DNA from: Acetobacteraceae bacterium
Lineage (GTDB): Bacteria > Pseudomonadota > Alphaproteobacteria > Acetobacterales > Acetobacteraceae
Length of the DNA: 64,000 nt
Assembly: GCA_947474705.1 (NCBI GenBank)
Contig: CANJJS010000002.1
Span: forward strand, 1-64,000
Direction: 5' to 3'
Made by a program: the position numbers and the translations under genes. This document shows positions 11,707 to 21,098 of this stretch, piece after piece. A model generated the notes under the pieces. That model had not been told where the DNA came from, did no database searches, and saw only the letters and a program-made list of their open reading frames with translations. Each line of letters starts with the position of its first letter. Position 1 is the first letter of the stretch.

Positions 11707-12153
11707 CTACCCCTTTGCGCGCCGCCCGGTTCGGGTTTGGGGCTTCGTGGGCTGTCCAAACAATACGACGGACGCCCGCATGACCTTCATCTGGTATCGC
11801 GTCGCGCGCTCCGGGGTATGGGAATGGTAATACCCAACAGCGCGCACGACATCGCCCCGCGCCTCGGTCAAATAAATCCGCACGATCGCCGCCGCCGCGA
11901 CGACGTTGAAACAGGGATCGTCGATCAGGCGCCGGGCGACCTCCTCGTGCGGCAGGTTCCAGGCCTTGGCGAGGTGCGGAATCCAGAGCGTGTTCACCTG
12001 CATGACGCCAAGATCCGCGGACCCGTTGAAATTCCGCGAAATGGCGCCGGGACGGCCGGCCTCGACCCGCTGGATCGACGGCAGCACACGCGGTGGCAAT
12101 TGGTGCACCTGCGCCGCCGCGAGCATGCAGGCGAGGTAGGGGACCGCCGCCAT
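11707..12153 (-). CDS. Lytic transglycosylase, SLT-type
   Basis: A 148-residue murein-cleaving enzyme of the goose-lysozyme-like fold. The catalytic glutamate is in LPSIQRVEAGRPGAISRN (about residue 31), followed by ADLGVMQVN, the conserved substrate cleft. Later, GDVVRAVGYYHSHTPERA matches the family's terminal YHS motif. The N-terminus (PYLACMLAAAQ) is hydrophobic but short, so export is plausible, not proven. The ATG overlaps the tyrA stop by one base (TGATG), making it the last gene of the chorismate mutase-hisC-tyrA operon. No T4SS genes are near. It resembles the small VirB1-type enzymes. Confidence 0.85.
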   Translation of the reverse strand: MAAVPYLACMLAAAQVHQLPPRVLPSIQRVEAGRPGAISRNFNGSADLGVMQVNTLWIPHLAKAWNLPHEEVARRLIDDPCFNVVAAAAIVRIYLTEARGDVVRAVGYYHSHTPERATRYQMKVMRASVVLFGQPTKPQTRTGRRAKG

Positions 12154-13040
12154 CAGGCCTGTTTGATCTCGATCAGGCTGCGCCGGATTTTCCGGCCTTG
12201 CTCCACCATGTTCTCGATATACTCGGCGTCGCCCCAGCGGATGGCGCGGGCCAGGCCTTGCGCGTCCTCCATGAACCGCGACAGCATTTCCAGCAGCGCC
12301 TCGCGGTTATTGAGGAAAATGTCGCGCCACATGACGGGGTCGGACGCGGCGATGCGGGTGAAGTCGCGGAAACCGGAGGCGGCGAAGTTGAGCACCTCCT
12401 GGCGGCTCTCGTCGGCGAGCCCGTCGGCCGTGTGGCAGATGGAGAAGGCGATCAGATGCGGCAGATGGGACACGATCGCCAGGACACGGTCGTGATGCGC
12501 CGGTTCCATCGACTCGACCATCGCGCCGCAGCGGCGCCAGAGTTCGGCGATCTTTTCGACGGACGCGGTATCGGTGCCCGGCGGCGGGGTAAGAAGCGTC
12601 CAACGGCCCTGGAACAACGTCGTGAACCCGGAGTCGGGGCCGGAATACTCGGTGCCCGCGATCGGATGCGCGGGCACGAAATGCACGCCCGCCGGAACAA
12701 ACGGGCCGACATCGCGGATGACGGATTGCTTGGTGGAGCCGACATCGGTCAGCACCGCGCCGGGCATGAGATGCAGGCCGATCGCCTTGGCCAGCGCCGC
12801 GAAGGCGCCGACGGGGGCGCAGAGCATGACGCAATCGGCGCCGGCGACGGCTTTCGCCGGGTCGATCTCCACACGGTCGGCGAAACCGAGTTCGACGACG
12901 CGATCGAGGGTTTTCTGGGTGCGGGCGTTGACCACGATCTCCGCCGCCAGGTCGCCGCGATCCTTGGCGATCCGCGCGACGGAGGAGCCGATCAGGCCGA
13001 TCCCGATCAGGGCCAGGCGTTTGAAAAGGGGTTCAGCCAC
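12153..13040 (-). CDS. tyrA: Prephenate/arogenate (cyclohexadienyl) dehydrogenase
   Basis: A 295-residue NAD(P)-dependent enzyme that oxidatively decarboxylates prephenate and/or arogenate on the way to tyrosine. Visible are an N-terminal Rossmann motif ([15 protein letters not shown]), the GSTKQSV and [15 protein letters not shown] substrate blocks, and [11 protein letters not shown] with the active-site histidine region. There is no ACT domain, so feedback inhibition through ACT is not expected. The start overlaps the hisC end by 8 bases; the stop overlaps the transglycosylase start. Prephenate versus arogenate preference cannot be read from sequence. Confidence 0.92.
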
Positions 13041-14127
13041 GGGATTGCTTCATGAACGCGGTAAGACCTTCGATGACGAGACCGCATTCCTCGGCGGTGC
13101 CGACGGTGATGCGCAGGCAATGCGGCAGGCCGTAAGAACCCACACGGCGCAGGATCAGGCCGCGCTGGCGCATGTAGGTGTCGGCCTGAAGCGCGAAGTC
13201 CGCGGTGCCGAAATCGGCGAGAACGAAATTGCCCTCGCCCGGATAAACTTTGAGTCCCGCGGCTTCGAGGCCGGCGGCCAGCTTCGGGCGCCATTCGGCG
13301 TTGTGGGCCTGGCTGGCTTCCACCCAGCCGGGCTCGGCCAGCGCCGCGATCCCGGCGGCCTGCGCGGGCACGGAGACGGAAAACGCGGCGCGGACACGGT
13401 GCAGCACGTCGTTGATGGCGGGCGGGCCGTAGCTCCAGCCCAGACGCACCCCGCCCAGCCCGAAGATTTTGGAAAATGTCCGGGTCATGATGGTGTTATC
13501 GGTGGCGTCCACCAGACGCTCGCCGGCGTTGTAGTCGTCGCGGGTGACGTATTCGGCATAGGCGGAGTCGATGACCAGCAGGATGTCAGGACGCAGATTT
13601 TCCCGGAATTTCGCCATGTCGGCTTCGGTAATCATCGCGCCGGTCGGGTTGTTCGGGTTGGCCAGGAACACCGCCTTGGTCGCGGGTGTGACCGCCGCCA
13701 GAATCGCGTCGAGGTCCGGTCGCAGATCCTTCTCGGGCACCTTGATCACATCGCTGCCGGCATAGACGCCGGCGATGTGGTAAATCGTGAACCCGTGCGC
13801 GCTCATGATAATGTCGCGGCCCGGCCCGCCATAGGCGAGGCACAAATGATACAGAATATCGTCCGATCCCGCCCCGCACACGATTTTCGCCGGGTCGAGG
13901 TTCCAGTACGCGCCAATCGCCTCCCGCAGCCGGTCCGCGCCGCCGTCGGGATAGCGAAAACCTTCCGCCGCGACCTCCCGCAACGCCTTTTGGGCGCCGG
14001 GGGGCACACCGAACGCGCCCTCGTTCGAGGACAGCTTGTAAGAACGATTGACACCGGGGACCGAGGCCTCGCCGCCGACATAGGGGCTGATGGTCAGGAT
14101 CTCGGGGCGGGGCGTGGGGGACGTCAT
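13033..14127 (-). CDS. hisC: Histidinol-phosphate / aromatic aminotransferase (HisC family)
   Basis: A 364-residue PLP class I/II aminotransferase. [16 protein letters not shown] is the substrate-arm motif, [10 protein letters not shown] the PLP-contact motif, DSAYAEY the next block, and [17 protein letters not shown] holds the PLP lysine. It lies between chorismate mutase and tyrA, so it probably supplies transamination for phenylalanine/tyrosine as well as histidinol-phosphate; that dual role is inference from the neighbours. The start overlaps the upstream stop (ATGA) and its end overlaps tyrA by 8 bases: one tightly coupled transcript. Confidence 0.92.
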
Positions 14128-14879
14128 GGTGTGTCTCCGGCGATCGGGACGGCATAGCCGCCAAGGACGATCGCGCCTTCGGGAAGTCCGGTTGCGTCTT
14201 CGGCGATCAGGCCCGCGACCTCGGCGATCGCGCCGTGCATCGCGAGGACTGGCAGCGCGCCGGGATGGGCGATGAAGGAGCGGTCGTCGCCGCTGGCGTC
14301 GGGCGCGGTGGTGGCGATCACGATGGCATCGGCCATGGGCACGTGAGCGGGGCGCGCCGTCCAGAACGGCAGGCGGGCGATGACGTAAAGCCGTGGCGTG
14401 GCCGCGGTCAAAGCCGCCCATGTCGCCGCGTCCGGTGGGAACGGCAGCACCGCGACGGTGGCGAGGCCGCGCCGCACCGTGTCCAAAGCCTCCGCGACCG
14501 AAGCCTTGGCGTCGATCGGGGTCAAAAATCCGAAATGTTCTCGTGCCATGGCGGCCACGGCATCGGGGCCGGCCACCGCGACCGTGACGGGCGACTGCAT
14601 GCCGGTCGTGCCGGCCAGCATCTCCCGCCACATGCGCACCAAAGTCCGCGCGGGCAGTTTGCCGGTGTGGCGCGCGACCAGCCGGCGCAGGATGGAGGCT
14701 TCGCGTCCGGGCCGGAACGCGGCGGTCTTGCCGGATCGCGCCACGCCTTCGACCACACGGGCCCGGTCGATGAGCAGATCGTGGATTTTGTCGTCGATTT
14801 CGTCGAGACGCGCGCGGAGGTCGCCCAGATTCGGGCGCCAGCCATCGTCCTCGGAAGGGGTCGGTCTATTGTCGGGCAT
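14124..14879 (-). CDS. Chorismate mutase (AroQ) with a C-terminal remnant-like prephenate dehydratase domain
   Basis: A 251-residue protein. Residues about 18-92 form an AroQ chorismate mutase: [20 protein letters not shown], then [20 protein letters not shown], then [12 protein letters not shown]. These carry the Arg/Lys/Glu pattern for turning chorismate into prephenate. The remaining 155 residues ([20 protein letters not shown], then [18 protein letters not shown]) resemble the fold of a prephenate dehydratase. The usual TRF catalytic motif and the ACT domain are not visible, so dehydratase activity is doubtful. It heads the operon with hisC, tyrA and the transglycosylase. Confidence 0.85.
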
Positions 14880-15135: not shown

Positions 15136-16179
15136 ATGTCAGCACCCACCGCCCCCTGGGCTTTCACCCTCGCGGCCCTCGCGCTCAACGCCGGTCAGGC
15201 CTGCGCCTCGCCCGTCTATAACGGCGGACCGATCCTGACCGCGCCGGTCGATATGAATTACATCTGGTACGGCAACTGGACCGGCAATACCGCCACCACG
15301 ATCCTGCCACGCCTCATCGCCGATCTGAATGGCTCGACCTATCTGAACACACTCAGTTCCTTCGTTTCCCCGGCCACGGCACAGGTGCCAACGGGCACAC
15401 TGAATATGACCGCGAGCTATTTCATCGATTCGTCCAGCCCCACGACACTCTGGGCCGGCAATTCCCTGAACGGAACAATCGGCGCGACCGGCCCCACTTC
15501 AATCGAGGCCATCGTGCGATCGGTGATCGCCACACAAGGCGTGACAGACCCGAACGCGCTCTGGTTCGTCCTGACCGCGCCCACGATCTCCGTGTCCGGA
15601 TTTCAAACCCAGTTCTGCGGCTGGCATAACACCACCAGCTCCTCCAGCGCCCTCGCGACACAATTCGCCTTTATCGGCGCGCCGGCGGGTTTCGGCAGCG
15701 GTTGCGATGCCTCGGTTCAGGATACCGCGGGGATCAACGGCAATTTCGCCGCCGACGCCATGGCCAGTGTGATCGCGCACGAATTGTTCGAAACCATCAC
15801 CGATCCCACCGGATACGGCTGGTGGGATTCCGTCAGCGCCGAAGGCGGCGGACACACCGGCGGATTCGAAAATTCCGATATGTGCAATTTCAACTTCGGC
15901 GCCACCGCGTCCTCCGCCGGCGCGAATTACAACGTCGACCTGAACGGCCATAAATATTTGCTGCAACAACAATGGATTAACAACACCGCGCCGGGCACGA
16001 ACCATACCGACCGCAACGGTGGACAATGCGGCATGTCCCTCGCCTTTGCCCAGGCGGCCCCGGAACCCGCGAGTCTCGCCGTCCTCGCGATCGGAATCGC
16101 CGCTCTGGGCTTTGCCCGCCGCGCTCAGCCCGGCAACAGAAATTCCCGCCCCAGCTTCACACGCGGGACGCCGTCGTAA
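15136..16179 (+). CDS. Secreted EXORDIUM-like protein with PEP-CTERM sorting signal
   Basis: A 347-residue exported protein. After a signal peptide (WAFTLAALALNAGQACA) it starts VYNGGPILTAPVDMNYIWYG, the opening typical of EXORDIUM/PHI-1-like proteins (PF04674). A conserved VIAHELFETITDPTGYGWWD block at about residues 212-231 looks like a zinc-protease-type HExxE site. Near the C-terminus APEPASLAVLAIGIAALGFA plus RR is a PEP-CTERM signal, read by an exosortase/PEP-CTERM system. The final 15 or so residues past the Arg pair overlap the nicotinate phosphoribosyltransferase 3' end (55-base convergent overlap). Function is unknown; a role in cell-surface or exopolysaccharide biology is inferred from the PEP-CTERM. 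Confidence 0.75.
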   Translation: MSAPTAPWAFTLAALALNAGQACASPVYNGGPILTAPVDMNYIWYGNWTGNTATTILPRLIADLNGSTYLNTLSSFVSPATAQVPTGTLNMTASYFIDSSSPTTLWAGNSLNGTIGATGPTSIEAIVRSVIATQGVTDPNALWFVLTAPTISVSGFQTQFCGWHNTTSSSSALATQFAFIGAPAGFGSGCDASVQDTAGINGNFAADAMASVIAHELFETITDPTGYGWWDSVSAEGGGHTGGFENSDMCNFNFGATASSAGANYNVDLNGHKYLLQQQWINNTAPGTNHTDRNGGQCGMSLAFAQAAPEPASLAVLAIGIAALGFARRAQPGNRNSRPSFTRGTPS

Positions 16180-17258
16180 GCCACGATATCCGCGGTGGCA
16201 TAGGTTTCCGTCCACGAGTCCGGGATGAAACCGCCGGTGCCCACCAGATCGATGGGCGCGCGCGCCATTGCCATCGTCCGGCATTTCTCCGGCCCAAACC
16301 CCGACGAGGCCACGATCCGGGCCTTCCCGTATCCGGCCTCGTCCAACGCCTCCCGCATCCGCCAGATCGCCGCCGCCGAAACGCCAGGCCCAGCCAGATA
16401 CCGCGCTTCCACTTCGCGCCCCGCCGCGGCGAAGACGCCGGGCACATGCCGCTCCAACACCGCGCGGCTGCCGGCGGCGTCGAGCCCCTCCAAATACCGC
16501 CCGCCATGCGTGTCCAGGCGGAACGCCATCTTCCCGGCCGCCACCAAATCCGGAAACCGCGCGCAAACCGCCAGCGCGTCGGCGATCTCCCGGCCGAAAT
16601 AATCGGCGAGGACCGTCATCGGCTCGTCCGGAAACGTCTCGCGGAACATCTCCGCGGCACGCAACGTGCTTCCGGCATAACCGATCAGCGAATGCGGCAT
16701 CGTGCCGAAACCCTTGGCGTTGCCGAACCAGTGCGCGGTGGCGTCGTTGGCGTTGCCGATGAAACCGAGCGCGCCCGCCCGCTTCGCCGCCGCGCCGCCG
16801 ACGGAACAGGCATAAGCCATCATATCCTGCATCTCGGCGCCCGCGCAGTGCCGCGCGTCCATCGCCAAAAAGGCCGCTTTTGGCAAGGCCAGCGCCATCC
16901 GCCAGGCATTGTGCGCGGCGACGCAGACGGGGCCGATCTTTTGCAGCAAGATCGTTTCCATCTCCGACAGATGCCGCATGCTCCCGCTCAGATACGCGAG
17001 CGGCTTGTTGGCCGGAACCTCCGCGCCTTCGTCGTGGGTCAGCGTCAGTTCGATGGCGATGCCGCGCTCCTTCGCCGCCGCCTCGATCCATTCGCGCATC
17101 GGACGCGGCGCGCACAGAACCGGACGGCGGAGAAAGATGGCATAGGTCGCCCGGACATCCCCGAAACGTTCGAGGATCTTCCGGGTCCGCGTGAAATAGC
17201 TGTCGGTGCGGGCGGCGATGTCCGCGCCAATCGCGCCGCGGTCTGCCCTGCCCGCCAT
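16125..17258 (-). CDS. Nicotinate phosphoribosyltransferase family protein
   Basis: A 377-residue enzyme of the nicotinate/quinolinate phosphoribosyltransferase fold, expected to join nicotinate to PRPP for NAD salvage. Visible blocks are ARTDSYFTRTRKILERFGD, HLSEMETILLQKIGPVCVAA, MDARHCAGAEMQD, FIGNANDATAHWFG, ADYFGREIADAL, RLDTHGGRYLEG and VGTGGFIPDSW. It is shorter than classical PncB and belongs to the compact bacterial subgroup. It sits 4 bases after the DAHP synthase stop on the same strand, so the two are probably cotranscribed. The 3' end overlaps the convergent PEP-CTERM gene. Confidence 0.85.
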   Translation of the reverse strand: MAGRADRGAIGADIAARTDSYFTRTRKILERFGDVRATYAIFLRRPVLCAPRPMREWIEAAAKERGIAIELTLTHDEGAEVPANKPLAYLSGSMRHLSEMETILLQKIGPVCVAAHNAWRMALALPKAAFLAMDARHCAGAEMQDMMAYACSVGGAAAKRAGALGFIGNANDATAHWFGNAKGFGTMPHSLIGYAGSTLRAAEMFRETFPDEPMTVLADYFGREIADALAVCARFPDLVAAGKMAFRLDTHGGRYLEGLDAAGSRAVLERHVPGVFAAAGREVEARYLAGPGVSAAAIWRMREALDEAGYGKARIVASSGFGPEKCRTMAMARAPIDLVGTGGFIPDSWTETYATADIVAYDGVPRVKLGREFLLPG

Positions 17259-17262
17259 CCGC

Positions 17263-18660
17263 TTACTGCGCCGCCAGCGCGGCCGGCGCCACGGGCGCCC
17301 GCCGCCGTTTCAGTTCCGCCGCGACCAAAAACGCGAGTTCCAGCGATTGCTCCGCGTTCAAACGCGGATCGCAGAAGGTCTCGTAACGTTCGGAAAGGTC
17401 GGTTTCCGACAGGCGCCGGGCACCGCCGGTGCATTCCGTGACATTCTGCCCGGTCATTTCGATATGCACACCGCCAGCCCAGGTGTCGAGGGACTGATGG
17501 ACGTCGAAGAAGCCCCGAACTTCGCGCAGGATTTCGTCGAAATTCCGGGTTTTCAACTTCGCGGCGGTGGAGATCGTGTTGCCGTGCATCGGATCGCACA
17601 GCCAGACCACCTTATGCCCGGACTTCTGGACAGCGCGCACCAGCGGCGCGAGTTTGTCGCCCACCTTGTCCGCGCCCATGCGGCTGATCAACGTGATCCG
17701 CCCGGCCTCGTTCGCGGGGTTGAGAATGTCCAGAATACGTAACAAATCGTCGGGTTCCTGGGAGGGGCCGACTTTCATGCCCAGCGGGTTCTTCACACCG
17801 CGGAGGTACTCGATATGCGCGCCGTCGGCCTGGCGGGTGCGGTCGCCGATCCACAGGAAATGCGCGGAGCAGCCGTACCAGTCGCCGGTGGTCGAATCGA
17901 TCCGCGTCAGCGCCTGCTCGAACGGCAGGAGCAGCGCCTCGTGACTGACATAGAAATCCGTCTCACGCAGATCGCGCGTGGTATCGGAGGTCATGCCGCA
18001 GGCGGTCATGAACGACAGCGTCTCGTCGATCCGGTGCGCGAGGTCGCGATATTGCGCGGCCAGCGGCGAGGCCTCGACGAAATCGAGGTTCCAGCGATGG
18101 ACTTCGTGCAGATCGGCATACCCGCCGGACGCGAAGGCCCGCAGCAAATTCAACGTGCTGGCGGACTGGAAATAGGCGAATTCCATGCGCGCGGGATCGG
18201 GGATGCGCGCCTGCGCCGTGAAGTCCGGGCCATTGATAATGTCGCCGCGGTAGCTGGGTAGCGTCGTATCGCCCTGGGTTTCATTGTCGGACGACCGCGG
18301 CTTGGCGAACTGACCGGCCATGCGGCCCATTTTCACCACGGGAACCGAGGCACCGAAGGTCAACACGACAGCCATCTGCAACAACACCCGGAACTGGTCG
18401 CGGATGATATTGGCGGTGAAATCGGAAAAACTCTCGGCGCAGTCGCCGCCCTGCAACACGAAGGCCTTGCCTTCGGACACACGCGCCAGTTGTTCTTTCA
18501 AACGGCGAGCCTCGCCGGCGAAAACCAGCGGCGGGTATTTGCCGATCTTGCGCTCCATCTCGTTGAGCTTTTCGGCGTCGGGATAGGTGGGCGCCTGGCG
18601 GATCGGGCGGTCGCGCCAGGTGTTCGGGGTCCAGGTCGCGGTCGGCTGGGTGGCGGTCAT
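17263..18660 (-). CDS. Class II 3-deoxy-7-phosphoheptulonate (DAHP) synthase
   Basis: A 465-residue plant/Mycobacterium-type DAHP synthase, the first enzyme of the shikimate pathway, condensing PEP and erythrose 4-phosphate. Family signatures are present: [20 protein letters not shown]-like start, [93 protein letters not shown] and [20 protein letters not shown]. Its ATG overlaps the stop of a 41-codon ORF (ATGA) that follows an attenuator-like hairpin, so translation coupling and transcription attenuation may both control it. Confidence 0.95.
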
Positions 18661-18782
18661 CGGGTTTCTCCTCGCGCGGCGTTATGTCCTGTCGCGGCGG
18701 ATTTGGCCATGCCCTTGGCTGGCGCCGGCGGGGGCGGCGGCATGGCGGGTTGCGATGTGACGTCGAAATCGGTGCTGGTCAT
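18657..18782 (-). CDS. Small 41-residue ORF coupled to DAHP synthase
   Basis: An ATG at 18782 is preceded by AGGAG at 7-base spacing, one of the better ribosome-binding sites in the window. The ORF encodes [20 protein letters not shown] followed by a short basic tail, and its TGA overlaps the ATG of the DAHP synthase. The peptide is proline/alanine-rich and not recognised. It could be a coupling peptide or a short protein; the leader has no run of aromatic codons. Confidence 0.5.
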
Positions 18783-18855
18783 CGGTGTCTCCTGCTGCAT
18801 GGAAGACCGCCAGGTCTGGAGCGGGGATTTCCGATGCGCCGGACTGTCCGGACAT

Positions 18856-18884
18856 AAAAAAAGCCGCCCTGGTCTGGCGGCTTT
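18856..18884 (-). terminator. Intrinsic terminator / attenuator upstream of DAHP synthase
   Basis: Read on the minus strand, a perfect 9-bp stem AAAGCCGCC/GGCGGCTTT (7-base loop) ends in seven T's (18862-18856). It points toward the DAHP synthase and its small ORF, about 74 bases before the latter. Upstream on the minus strand, GGCGGC and GGGCTTT (about 18905-18925) could pair with the 5' arm instead, giving a competing structure, as attenuators have. No other minus-strand gene lies closely upstream, only repeat copy B. Confidence 0.65.
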
Positions 18885-19021
18885 GGGGGTGTTTGCTACG
18901 AACGCAAAGCCCAGGCCGCCGGTGCATACCAGCGGTACCAAAATCGGGCGATGAGGGTGGCGTTCGGACGCATGACGGCGTTGGTAACCGCATCGCGCCC
19001 GGCGCGCAAGGGGTTAAGTTC

Positions 19022-19330
19022 GGGGCAATCGGGTGAAGGAAAGAAAGCCTTGGGGCTCCGCCCCAAACCCGGCGAGGGCCGTTGCCCCTTCGAACCCCAC
19101 CAGGGCGGGGCCCCCCCGCCTTCGCAGGGGCAAGCCTGGACCCATTTAATTGGGGGAGACGAAGAAGGGGGCCATGCGAGGCGGTTGCGACGTCCGAGTA
19201 GGCCCCCTTCTTCGTCTCCCCCAAACCGACGGTATCCAAGGCCCGGCCTTGGCGGGGGTTGAGGGGGCAGCGCCCCCCACGGGGTCCGGGGCGGAGCCCT
19301 GGGACTCTCTTCCTTCGTCCGCTTGCCCTC
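19022..19330. repeat. Long palindromic element, copy B
   Basis: The left end is GGGCAATCGGGTGAAGGAA; the right end, read on the opposite strand, is GGGCAAGCGGACGAAGGAA. The central hairpin uses GGGGGAGACGAAGAAGGG and a partner ending CGTCTCCCCC. Compared with copy A, the T in GAT has become C and the opposite A has become G, a compensatory change. The element starts upstream of the DAHP synthase leader and ends 5 bases past the SDR stop. Confidence 0.9.
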
Positions 19331-19334
19331 CGCC

Positions 19335-20093
19335 TCACCCCCGCCCGATATAGGGCATCTTCGTCGCCATCACCGTCATGAACTGCACATTCGCGTCCAG
19401 CGACAGGCTGGCCATGTACGCCACACCGCGCGCGACGTCGTTCACATCGATCCGCGCCTCCGCCTCCACCTTGCCGCTGGCCTGCAACCGTCCCCGCGCC
19501 GTGTCCTCGTTGCGCGCGGTCGCCGCGTTGCCGATGTCGATCTGACCGCAGGCGATGTCGAATTCCCTTCCATCCAGCGACAAAGAGCGCGTCAGCCCGG
19601 TCAAAGCATGTTTCGTCGCCGAATAGGGCGTCGAATTCCGCCGCGGCACATGCGCCGACACCGAGCCATTGTTGACGATCCGCCCGCCTCTGGGCGTCTG
19701 CGCCTTCATCATGCGAAACGCGTGCTGGGCGCACAGAAACGACCCCGTCAGATTCACCGCGACGACGTTGGTCCATTGCTCCAGCGTCAGGTCGTCGATC
19801 GGAATGTTCCGGGTGGTGATGCCGGCGTTGTTGAACAACAAATCGATACGCCCGTACGTCGTCCGGATCGTCTCGAACAACGCCGCGATCGACGCGGGAT
19901 CGGACACATCCGTGGGCACGACCAGCATCGCCGGCGCCGCCGCGCCCGCGAGCGCCGCGGTCTCCTCCAACATCTCCCGCCGGCGTCCGGCCAGCACGAC
20001 GGTAAACCCGTCCTTGTGCAACGCCAGCGCGGTGGCGCGGCCAATGCCGCTGCCGGCGCCCGTGATCGCGGCGATTTTCGGGGATTGATTCAT
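19335..20093 (-). CDS. Short-chain dehydrogenase/reductase (SDR)
   Basis: A 252-residue classical SDR. The NAD(P) motif is [18 protein letters not shown], followed by [11 protein letters not shown], then the catalytic Ser/Tyr/Lys in [21 protein letters not shown]. An Arg-rich segment after the first strand ([11 protein letters not shown]) suggests NADP preference. The ATG at 20093 has GAGG 10 bases upstream; an ATG at 20114 is possible. It diverges from the TauD-type gene with only 115 bases between starts. The substrate is not known. Confidence 0.88.
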
Positions 20094-20207
20094 CGGGGCG
20101 GTTCCTCGTGCCATGTTGACCATGGGCGAGTGTCCGACAGCGCGCGGCTTGGCGCAAACGCGCCGCGCGGTTACAGTCCGGGCCCCGTTCGAAAAGGAAA
20201 TCCGCCC

Positions 20208-21098
20208 ATGGCGATCTCGGTCCGGCCGTTGCACCCGCTGTTTTGCGCGGAGATCTCGGGCGCCGACACCGGATCGCCCATGGACGACGCCACCTTCGCG
20301 GAGATCCGCGCGGCGTTCGAGGCATATTCCGTCCTGATCTTTCGCGATCAAACCCTGTCCGACGAAACGCAAATCGCCTTCAGCCGGCGCTTCGGGCCGC
20401 TGGAAGTCGCGGGCAAGGCCAACCCGGCGACCGGCACGCCCTTCGCCCGGCAGTCCAATCTGGACATTCGCACCGGCGCGGTCATTCCGCCGGAAGACCG
20501 GCGGATGATTTACCAGAAAGGCAATTATCTCTGGCATTCCGACAGCTCCTTCAAACCGGTGCCGTCGCTGTGCTCGCTGCTCTCGGCGCGGATCGTGCCG
20601 CCGGAGGGCGGCAACACCGAATTCGCCTGCATGCGCGCCGCGTACGACGCGCTCGACGACGCCATGAAAGCGAAGCTGGAAGGCCTGGTCGTCGAACACA
20701 GCCTGGTCTACTCGCGCGGGACGATTTCCGATGTCGCGCTGACACCCGAAATGAAAGCGGAATTGCCGGGCGCGTGGCAGACCGCGACGCGCGTCAACCC
20801 GGTCAACGGACGAAAAGCGATTTACGCGGGGGCGCATGCCTCGCACGTCATTGGCTGGCCGCGAGAGGAAGGCCGGGCGGCGATCGCCTGGCTGAATGAA
20901 TTTTCGACACAGGAAAAATTCCGGTATTCCCATGCCTGGCGGGCGGGCGACCTGGTCATCTGGGACAACCGCGCGACGCTGCACCGGGCCACGGCGTACG
21001 ATACCGTGAAGCACAAGCGCCTGATGCAGCGCACGACCGTGGGCGATTCCGGACCCACCGTGGCGCAGCCGGAACGCTACGAACTGGCCGCCGAATAA
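20208..21098 (+). CDS. TauD/TfdA-family Fe(II)/2-oxoglutarate dioxygenase
   Basis: A 296-residue non-haem iron oxygenase. The metal site reads [20 protein letters not shown] (His and Asp of the HxD motif) with the distal histidine in [12 protein letters not shown], followed by an arginine (LMQRTTV) that binds 2-oxoglutarate. The [16 protein letters not shown] block is also typical. Family members act on taurine, 2,4-D-like acids and similar substrates; the substrate here cannot be told. The ATG at 20208 has a GAAAAGGAAA stretch 8-17 bases upstream. Confidence 0.88.

Follow-up and report, generated by a model that had tools for sequence, protein, structure and literature searches.

Synthesis of all aromatic amino acids begins with DAHP synthase, and attenuators in front of its genes are already known in principle. 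The example is aroR-aroF of Corynebacterium glutamicum, which has a leader with a Phe-Tyr-Phe motif and works by ribosome stalling (Neshat et al. 2014, as cited in PMC11802643). The trpL transcript of Sinorhizobium is leaderless, and a small RNA begins at its leader AUG (PMC7298713, PMC10117765). Codon choice has been argued to matter in attenuators (PMC1183508). For the Actinobacteria, the accessible text of PMC1262725 reports finding no conserved RNA structures ahead of Phe or Tyr operons, and a search of the main text of a broad attenuator survey (PMC2965389) for the terms aroF, aroG and DAHP found none of them.

We analysed a window of 64,000 nucleotides from an Acetobacteraceae bacterium (contig CANJJS010000002.1), in which the original prediction had placed an apparent attenuator in front of a class II DAHP synthase gene. 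The assignment of the gene is confirmed by its matches to PF01474 and TIGR01358. The features of the locus are as follows.

16125..17258, minus strand: nicotinate phosphoribosyltransferase-like (NAPRT-like) gene, next gene of the probable operon (NF005529, E 6.4e-28, below the curated cut-off; no Pfam match)
17263..18660, minus strand: class II DAHP synthase (3-deoxy-7-phosphoheptulonate synthase; PF01474, E 3.3e-214; TIGR01358 above cut-off)
18657..18782, minus strand: DFDV small ORF, its stop overlapping the DAHP synthase start, with segment 18793-18788 marked beside it (own-genome profile match)
18856..18868, minus strand: segment 4 (GGCGGCTTT, 18868-18860) and the T tract (to 18856) (terminator scan, alignment)
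18876..18884, minus strand: segment 3, AAAGCCGCC, the terminator 5' arm and partner of segment 2 (2:3 pairing in 97.1% of cells, no covariation)
18896..18973, minus strand: leader peptide ORF, MRPNATLIARFWYRWYAPAAWALRS and stop, apparently leaderless, without a Shine-Dalgarno sequence (ATG ORF; aromatic core conserved)
18916..18922, minus strand: segment 2 (CCGGCGG; pairing in the window extends to 18906), which pairs with segment 1 or segment 3 (alignment, folding)
18929..18935, minus strand: segment 1 (CCGCTGG), within the FWYRWY codons, which pairs with segment 2 (98.9% of cells paired in 87 sequences; most of its letters pre-set by the search pattern)
18982..18987, minus strand: -10-like hexamer TTACCA, spaced so that transcription would begin at the leader ATG or just beside it (aligned sites)
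19004..19009, minus strand: -35-like hexamer TTGCGC of the leader promoter (CTTGC peak in aligned sites)

Close to this operon, at 12153-14879 on the minus strand, are a prephenate dehydrogenase, a class I/II aminotransferase and a chorismate mutase-type protein.

An aromatic leader ORF ahead of the DAHP synthase gene

The terminator of the original prediction is present on the minus strand at 18884-18860, with a 9-bp stem, a 7-nt loop and seven T's in all, and is separated by 200 nt from the DAHP synthase ATG at 18660. The upstream segment that had been proposed to pair with its 5' arm is also there: GGCGGCCTGGGCTTT (18920-18906) is complementary to segment 3. The window sequence alone does not fold in an unusual way (z -1.23; 25 of 200 shuffles were as good), and the region holds five terminator-like sites against 3.0 in shuffles. 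It is conservation in relatives, and not single-sequence folding, that shows the attenuator to be more than a chance arrangement.

The leader had been described as lacking a run of Phe, Tyr or Trp codons. This proved wrong: an ORF of 25 codons at 18973-18896, ending 11 nt before the terminator stem, encodes MRPNATLIARFWYRWYAPAAWALRS with the core FWYRWY. The run had been missed because the coordinates given belong to a TTG ORF in another frame. The codons are CGA-TTT-TGG-TAC-CGC-TGG-TAT, and the core is the sole six-residue stretch in the window with at least five F, W or Y residues (one of 118,288, six frames). The locus thus combines a short leader ORF, clustered regulatory codons and a terminator that follows them, as expected of an attenuator.

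A palindromic element of 271 bp (19041-19311) has perfect inner arms of 24 bp and outer arms of 72 nt at 75%, and stops about 30 bp short of the leader -35 box. At least 40 long copies, including that of the window, occur in the same genome (40 of the 188 candidates were scored), and the element is MITE- or REP-like.

Conservation of the leader, its putative promoter and the alternative pairings

A codon-degenerate pattern for the core (F W Y R W/R Y) was found at 68 places in 65 of 397 family genomes and 20 of 102 genera, against 6 matches with the reversed control. A tighter pattern yielded at least 118 stretches in a named genome collection, some of them from genomes that are also in the other sets. 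The 80 matches listed were mostly from Acetobacteraceae, Azospirillum, Dongia, Telmatospirillum and unplaced Rhodospirillales or Alphaproteobacteria; a few came from bins labelled as other taxa, e.g. Rhizobium, Nitrosovibrio and Asaia. Nearly the same exact pattern matched 5 of 385 class genomes, namely the window's own genome and four in a single genus of another family, with no control matches. A covariance model built from alignment A1 (below), which is freer than the search pattern, placed the element in 81 of 395 order genomes and 25 of 84 genera; apart from false matches this count is a lower bound, because filters were strict and few candidates were scored per genome. Two of the model's weakest matches (L253 and L254, E 1.7e-4) were rejected as false and a third (L245) is doubtful.

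The codons of the core are themselves conserved. TTT occurs in 67, the first TAC in 66 and CGC or CGT in 67 of the 68 pattern matches, and CGA precedes the core in all 37 sites inspected. Segment 1 accounts for the near-fixation of TAC and CGY. The CGA-TTT pair before the Trp codon, almost invariant, lies outside segment 1, which explains the constancy of neither codon, yet both codons are rare in nearby genes: across four of these, CGA makes up 2 of 115 Arg codons and TTT 10 of 56 Phe codons. The leader stop codon ends 33 nt past the start of TTT in 103 of 122 sites and 15 nt further in the window.

When 152 sites (duplicates included) were aligned on the leader ATG, CTTGC peaked at about -37 to -33 and TA near -13/-12. 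TTG at -38 to -33 together with TA at -14 to -10 was present in 86 of 119 unique sites; 200 letter shuffles gave 0.9 such sites on average and never more than 5. The other 33 have no promoter-like pair at the chosen start; 16 of them have one before an alternative in-frame start, and 17 at no start tried. A strict sigma-70 consensus scan returned no promoter in 17000-20500. A Shine-Dalgarno-like motif is present ahead of the leader ATG at 4 of 120 sites and ahead of the DFDV ATG at 101 of 101. The promoter spacing and the missing Shine-Dalgarno motif at the leader ATG indicate that the leader transcript is probably leaderless, as for Sinorhizobium trpL.

All fetched loci together gave 155 sites, or 122 once identical stretches were removed. 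Alignment A1 comprises 87 of 117 eligible sites, the rest having been dropped by eye as near-copies; the search pattern fixed most of its first 21 columns, and invariance there is no evidence. For the helices 1:2 and 3:4 taken together, 98.6% of cells were paired; sliding reduced this to 27-58%. In 8 sequences one terminator pair has switched from A-U to G-C on both sides, a number not attained in any of 500 shuffles. Two of the five measures for these helices were not above shuffles; the number of pairs changed on both sides and the number of pair types were reached by 312 and 411 of the 500. Helix 1:2 shows no change on both sides in A1. For 2:3 the paired fraction was 97.1% against 6-62% when slid, with no covariation or change on both sides and with pairing not above letter shuffles (500 of 500 reached it).

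We folded 117 native sites with the ribosome in three positions. When segment 1 was hidden and segment 4 still absent, 2:3 formed at P > 0.5 in all 117; with the ribosome on the stop codon, 3:4 formed in all 117; and with no ribosome, 1:2 formed in 99. When segment 1 is hidden but segment 4 is already there, the equilibrium fold is still 3:4 in 101 of 117 sites, which implies that the switch must act during transcription, under kinetic control. A mutually exclusive antiterminator and terminator, with a stop codon placed to cover segment 2, are thus indicated by complementarity and folding, and not by covariation of 2:3. The original prediction had set an alignment with relatives as one test. 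The terminator and the alternate pairing are conserved there, and attenuation in front of the DAHP synthase is strongly supported.

That prediction had also pointed to the palindrome CCGGACTGTCCGG at 18839-18851 as a possible operator. The palindrome exists, and matches with up to two mismatches number 12 over both strands (18839 counted twice) versus 4.8 expected. Its position is downstream of the terminator, and on visual inspection of A1 no sequence beyond the two nearest relatives retains so much as a degenerate version; an operator role was rejected on these grounds.

Downstream genes and the DFDV small ORF

Genes following the element were identified by ORF and codon-position GC at the 105 unique sites for which 1 kb of following sequence was available. 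Class II DAHP synthase follows in 30 (7 like the window's and 23 of a second type, about 62% identical), a trpG-type gene in 19, a luciferase-like oxidoreductase in 4, an SBP_bac_11 protein fused to DFDV in 3, another same-strand ORF in 18 (some perhaps spurious), a convergent gene in 29 and nothing near in 2. The trpG-type genes match TIGR00566 (anthranilate or aminodeoxychorismate synthase glutamine amidotransferase), and we read them as trpG from the adjoining trpD-like gene. Thus 49 of the 105 sites precede DAHP synthase or a trpG-type gene, and 56 precede other genes or none. Five of six convergent neighbours searched against Pfam matched a family (AraC-type regulator, AMP-binding enzyme, sodium:alanine symporter, PurH, FAD-binding); a convergent neighbour in Azospirillum (L093) matched neither Pfam nor NCBIfam. 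A minus-strand ORF at another site (L089) had no Pfam match, and the gene caller placed a gene on the plus strand there.

The position of the element varies within the window's genus. The covariance model finds it in 28 of 33 genomes: at the window's particular DAHP synthase in only 7, at a second DAHP synthase in 9, and elsewhere only in 12. Ten genus genomes have the second DAHP synthase, with the element in front of it in nine; in each of the seven with the element at the window's gene, a single DAHP synthase was found (two of these genomes are 64% and 80% complete). In a tree of DAHP synthases from 30 genus members and 4 outgroups (two of the 33 were left out as lacking the locus and one for a broken match), the seven element-bearing members fall in three places, and well-supported branches force at least two changes. 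A NAPRT-like homologue lies beside DAHP synthase in 56 of 58 family loci, whether the element is present or not. Because this gene stays with DAHP synthase regardless, it looks as if the element moves rather than the genes. Searches against plasmids gave no match for the window leader or the Azospirillum unit, and for the trpG-linked unit the sole match was to the trpG-type gene on one plasmid.

In one copy from the genus (L257, genome G158), TAA replaces the first Tyr codon and the leader stops at ...RFW; a terminator-like sequence and a DFDV ORF are both present.

An ATG ORF with D(F/Y)DV near its start, letters that the search required, follows the terminator in 94 of the 108 unique sites having 420 nt downstream. 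The same search found none on the other strand (0 of 108), further down (0 of 106) or upstream (0 of 95). Five of the 14 sites lacking the ORF show a variant by eye, and nine are linked to DAHP synthase. The consensus is (F/Y)DFDV(I/V)(T/S)GP, after which comes a tail that varies and is usually rich in proline. The window's ORF matches the profile in its own genome with E 1.8e-6, its sequence being itself in the profile, and overlaps the DAHP synthase gene at ATGA (18660-18657). Across 200 order genomes the profile gave 30 matches up to E 0.05. All 23 at E 0.0011 or below lie within 200 nt of a covariance-model leader; the seven weaker ones (0.02-0.05) were read as chance and set aside. Of 38 members, none matched NCBIfam up to E 1, and in Pfam three families were matched by one member each (best E 0.014, below cut-off). 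The profile had no match in the PDB up to E 10.

The DFDV ORF most likely encodes a real small protein made under aromatic shortage. We weighed this against a role for the ORF as a cis element, in translational coupling or protection of the read-through transcript, with no functional protein. Among the 41 sites linked to DAHP synthase or trpG, 22 have an overlap of 1 or 4 nt between the DFDV stop and the start that follows, 10 have the two close together and 9 do not; the ORF is also shorter before DAHP synthase (median 30 aa), and in nine sites linked to that gene it was not found. These features would suit a cis element, and before DAHP synthase or trpG the ORF probably also couples translation to that gene. 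A cis role alone is nevertheless unlikely in our view. A convergent gene comes next in 29 of 105 sites, which leaves nothing to couple to; DFDV is then the sole remaining product (neighbours by gene calling), and it appears to be the sole product of the switch in Azospirillum, Dongia and Neoroseomonas loci. Moreover, synonymous positions vary (GTC/GTG/GTT, CCG/CCC/CCA/CCT) while the residues are kept, and in three unique sites the ORF is fused in frame to an SBP_bac_11-type protein.

In-frame fusions of the DFDV motif to a solute-binding-type domain were seen in L085, L120, L139 and L251 (SBP_bac_11 by Pfam for L139), and the N-terminus of that domain does not resemble a signal peptide.

Proposed mechanism and comparison with known systems

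The element is very probably a ribosome-mediated transcription attenuator that senses charged tRNA-Phe, tRNA-Trp and tRNA-Tyr. From its layout we infer the following course of transcription start, translation, stalling and response to starvation. The transcript would begin at the leader AUG or right beside it, and a ribosome would trail RNA polymerase through CGA-TTT-TGG-TAC-CGC-TGG-TAT. Were Phe-, Trp- or Tyr-tRNA scarce, the ribosome would stall there and cover segment 1; 2:3 would then pair before segment 4 is made, no terminator would form, and the polymerase would continue into the DFDV ORF, the DAHP synthase gene and the NAPRT-like gene. If no ribosome were present, 1:2 should form and transcription terminate, though the window's own fold is near-balanced in that state (1:2 at 0.47 versus 2:3 at 0.52). 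One leader with all three aromatic residues would let a single ribosome report on the whole branch. The gene downstream belongs to the pathway of a sensed amino acid in the window (DAHP synthase), at 49 of the 105 sites and at one trpS copy; at the other 56 sites different genes or none follow.

The terminated leader RNA or its peptide might instead act mainly in trans, like rnTrpL/peTrpL of Sinorhizobium. The small-mRNA layout starting from the leader AUG resembles that of rnTrpL (PMC7298713), and there are sites with DFDV and no same-strand gene downstream. Since what comes after the terminator is usually a conserved DFDV ORF or an aro/trp gene, we consider it improbable that action in trans is the main function; it is compatible with attenuation and does not exclude it.

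TnaC is an arrest peptide that responds to tryptophan, and FWYRWY could in the same manner sense a free aromatic amino acid or other ligand in the ribosome tunnel. The peptide core is strongly conserved and often followed by (P)A(A/V) just before the stop, which speaks for this reading. However, the P-A-A ending is dictated by segment 2 (CCGGCGGCC), leader length varies from 12 to 28 aa across sites, and divergent leaders change the order and identity of the aromatic residues. We fetched 20 stretches, 13 weaker or divergent matches and 7 genus mates. The divergent leaders include RFWRRWYYILAA, RFWRRWRYTPAA, RFWRRRYPPAA, RFWRRWL, RFYYRPDYLPAA, RFYRRWLYTPVA, RFYRRWYPPAA, RFTSYWRYHQAA and RFWYRWHSPAA, and genus mates have RFWYCWY; among the cores are FWRRWY, FYYRPDY, FYRRWLY and FWYCWY. 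Such cores hold three to five aromatic residues, with two leaders having only three. A second copy in one genome, RLWRRWRHKSAA, holds two, is Trp-only (RLWRRWRH) and precedes trpS (TIGR00233 above cut-off), a single case. The leaders thus preserve their aromatic content though its order and identity drift, and the one with Trp alone stands at a Trp gene, as sensing of codons predicts. An arrest peptide is therefore very improbable.

A signal carried by an RNA-binding protein or metabolite, the alternative offered by the original prediction, is scarcely credible: it arose from a misread frame, the run of aromatic codons together with the ribosome geometry accounts for the element, and we found no support for it, the sole Rfam match with E < 1 being a sub-threshold Phe_leader.

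A further reading is a modular regulatory cassette in the Rhodospirillales in the wide sense, made up of a pan-aromatic leader, a terminator and a DFDV gene. The DFDV protein would be its primary product on shortage of Phe, Trp or Tyr, with aro and trp operons recruited in several lineages; we regard this as an even bet. The conserved DFDV ORF ties the switch to an unnamed small protein, a candidate amino-acid-starvation small protein, and its occurrence, as part of the cassette, ahead of different operons within a single genus points to a way in which an attenuator regulon can spread. In the literature searched, which took in few subscription papers, we recognised no description of this leader or the DFDV motif; a search for the letters of the motifs returned two unrelated papers.

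Among known systems, the enteric pheA leader has the same general layout as the window element and is specific to Phe only. It is the best Rfam match of the element (RF01859, Phe_leader), with 24 bits against a gathering score of 55 and E 0.098, short of membership. At the gathering score, no T-box or riboswitch family of Rfam 15 is present in the window, where only two tRNAs matched. The AroF protein of C. glutamicum is not known to be a class II enzyme, and the aroR-aroF transcript is also leaderless; the trpL peptide of S. meliloti differs in sequence from the window leader. The aroR-aroF attenuator likewise places an aromatic-residue leader and ribosome stalling before a DAHP synthase gene, and it differs in belonging to another phylum and in its quoted motif, which lacks Trp; the accessible text of PMC11802643 mentions no DFDV ORF. 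The trpL-trpE(G) attenuator of S. meliloti is likewise alphaproteobacterial and ribosome-mediated, with a small RNA from the leader AUG (PMC7298713, PMC10117765), and differs in that it senses Trp, controls trpE(G) and has a 14-aa peptide.
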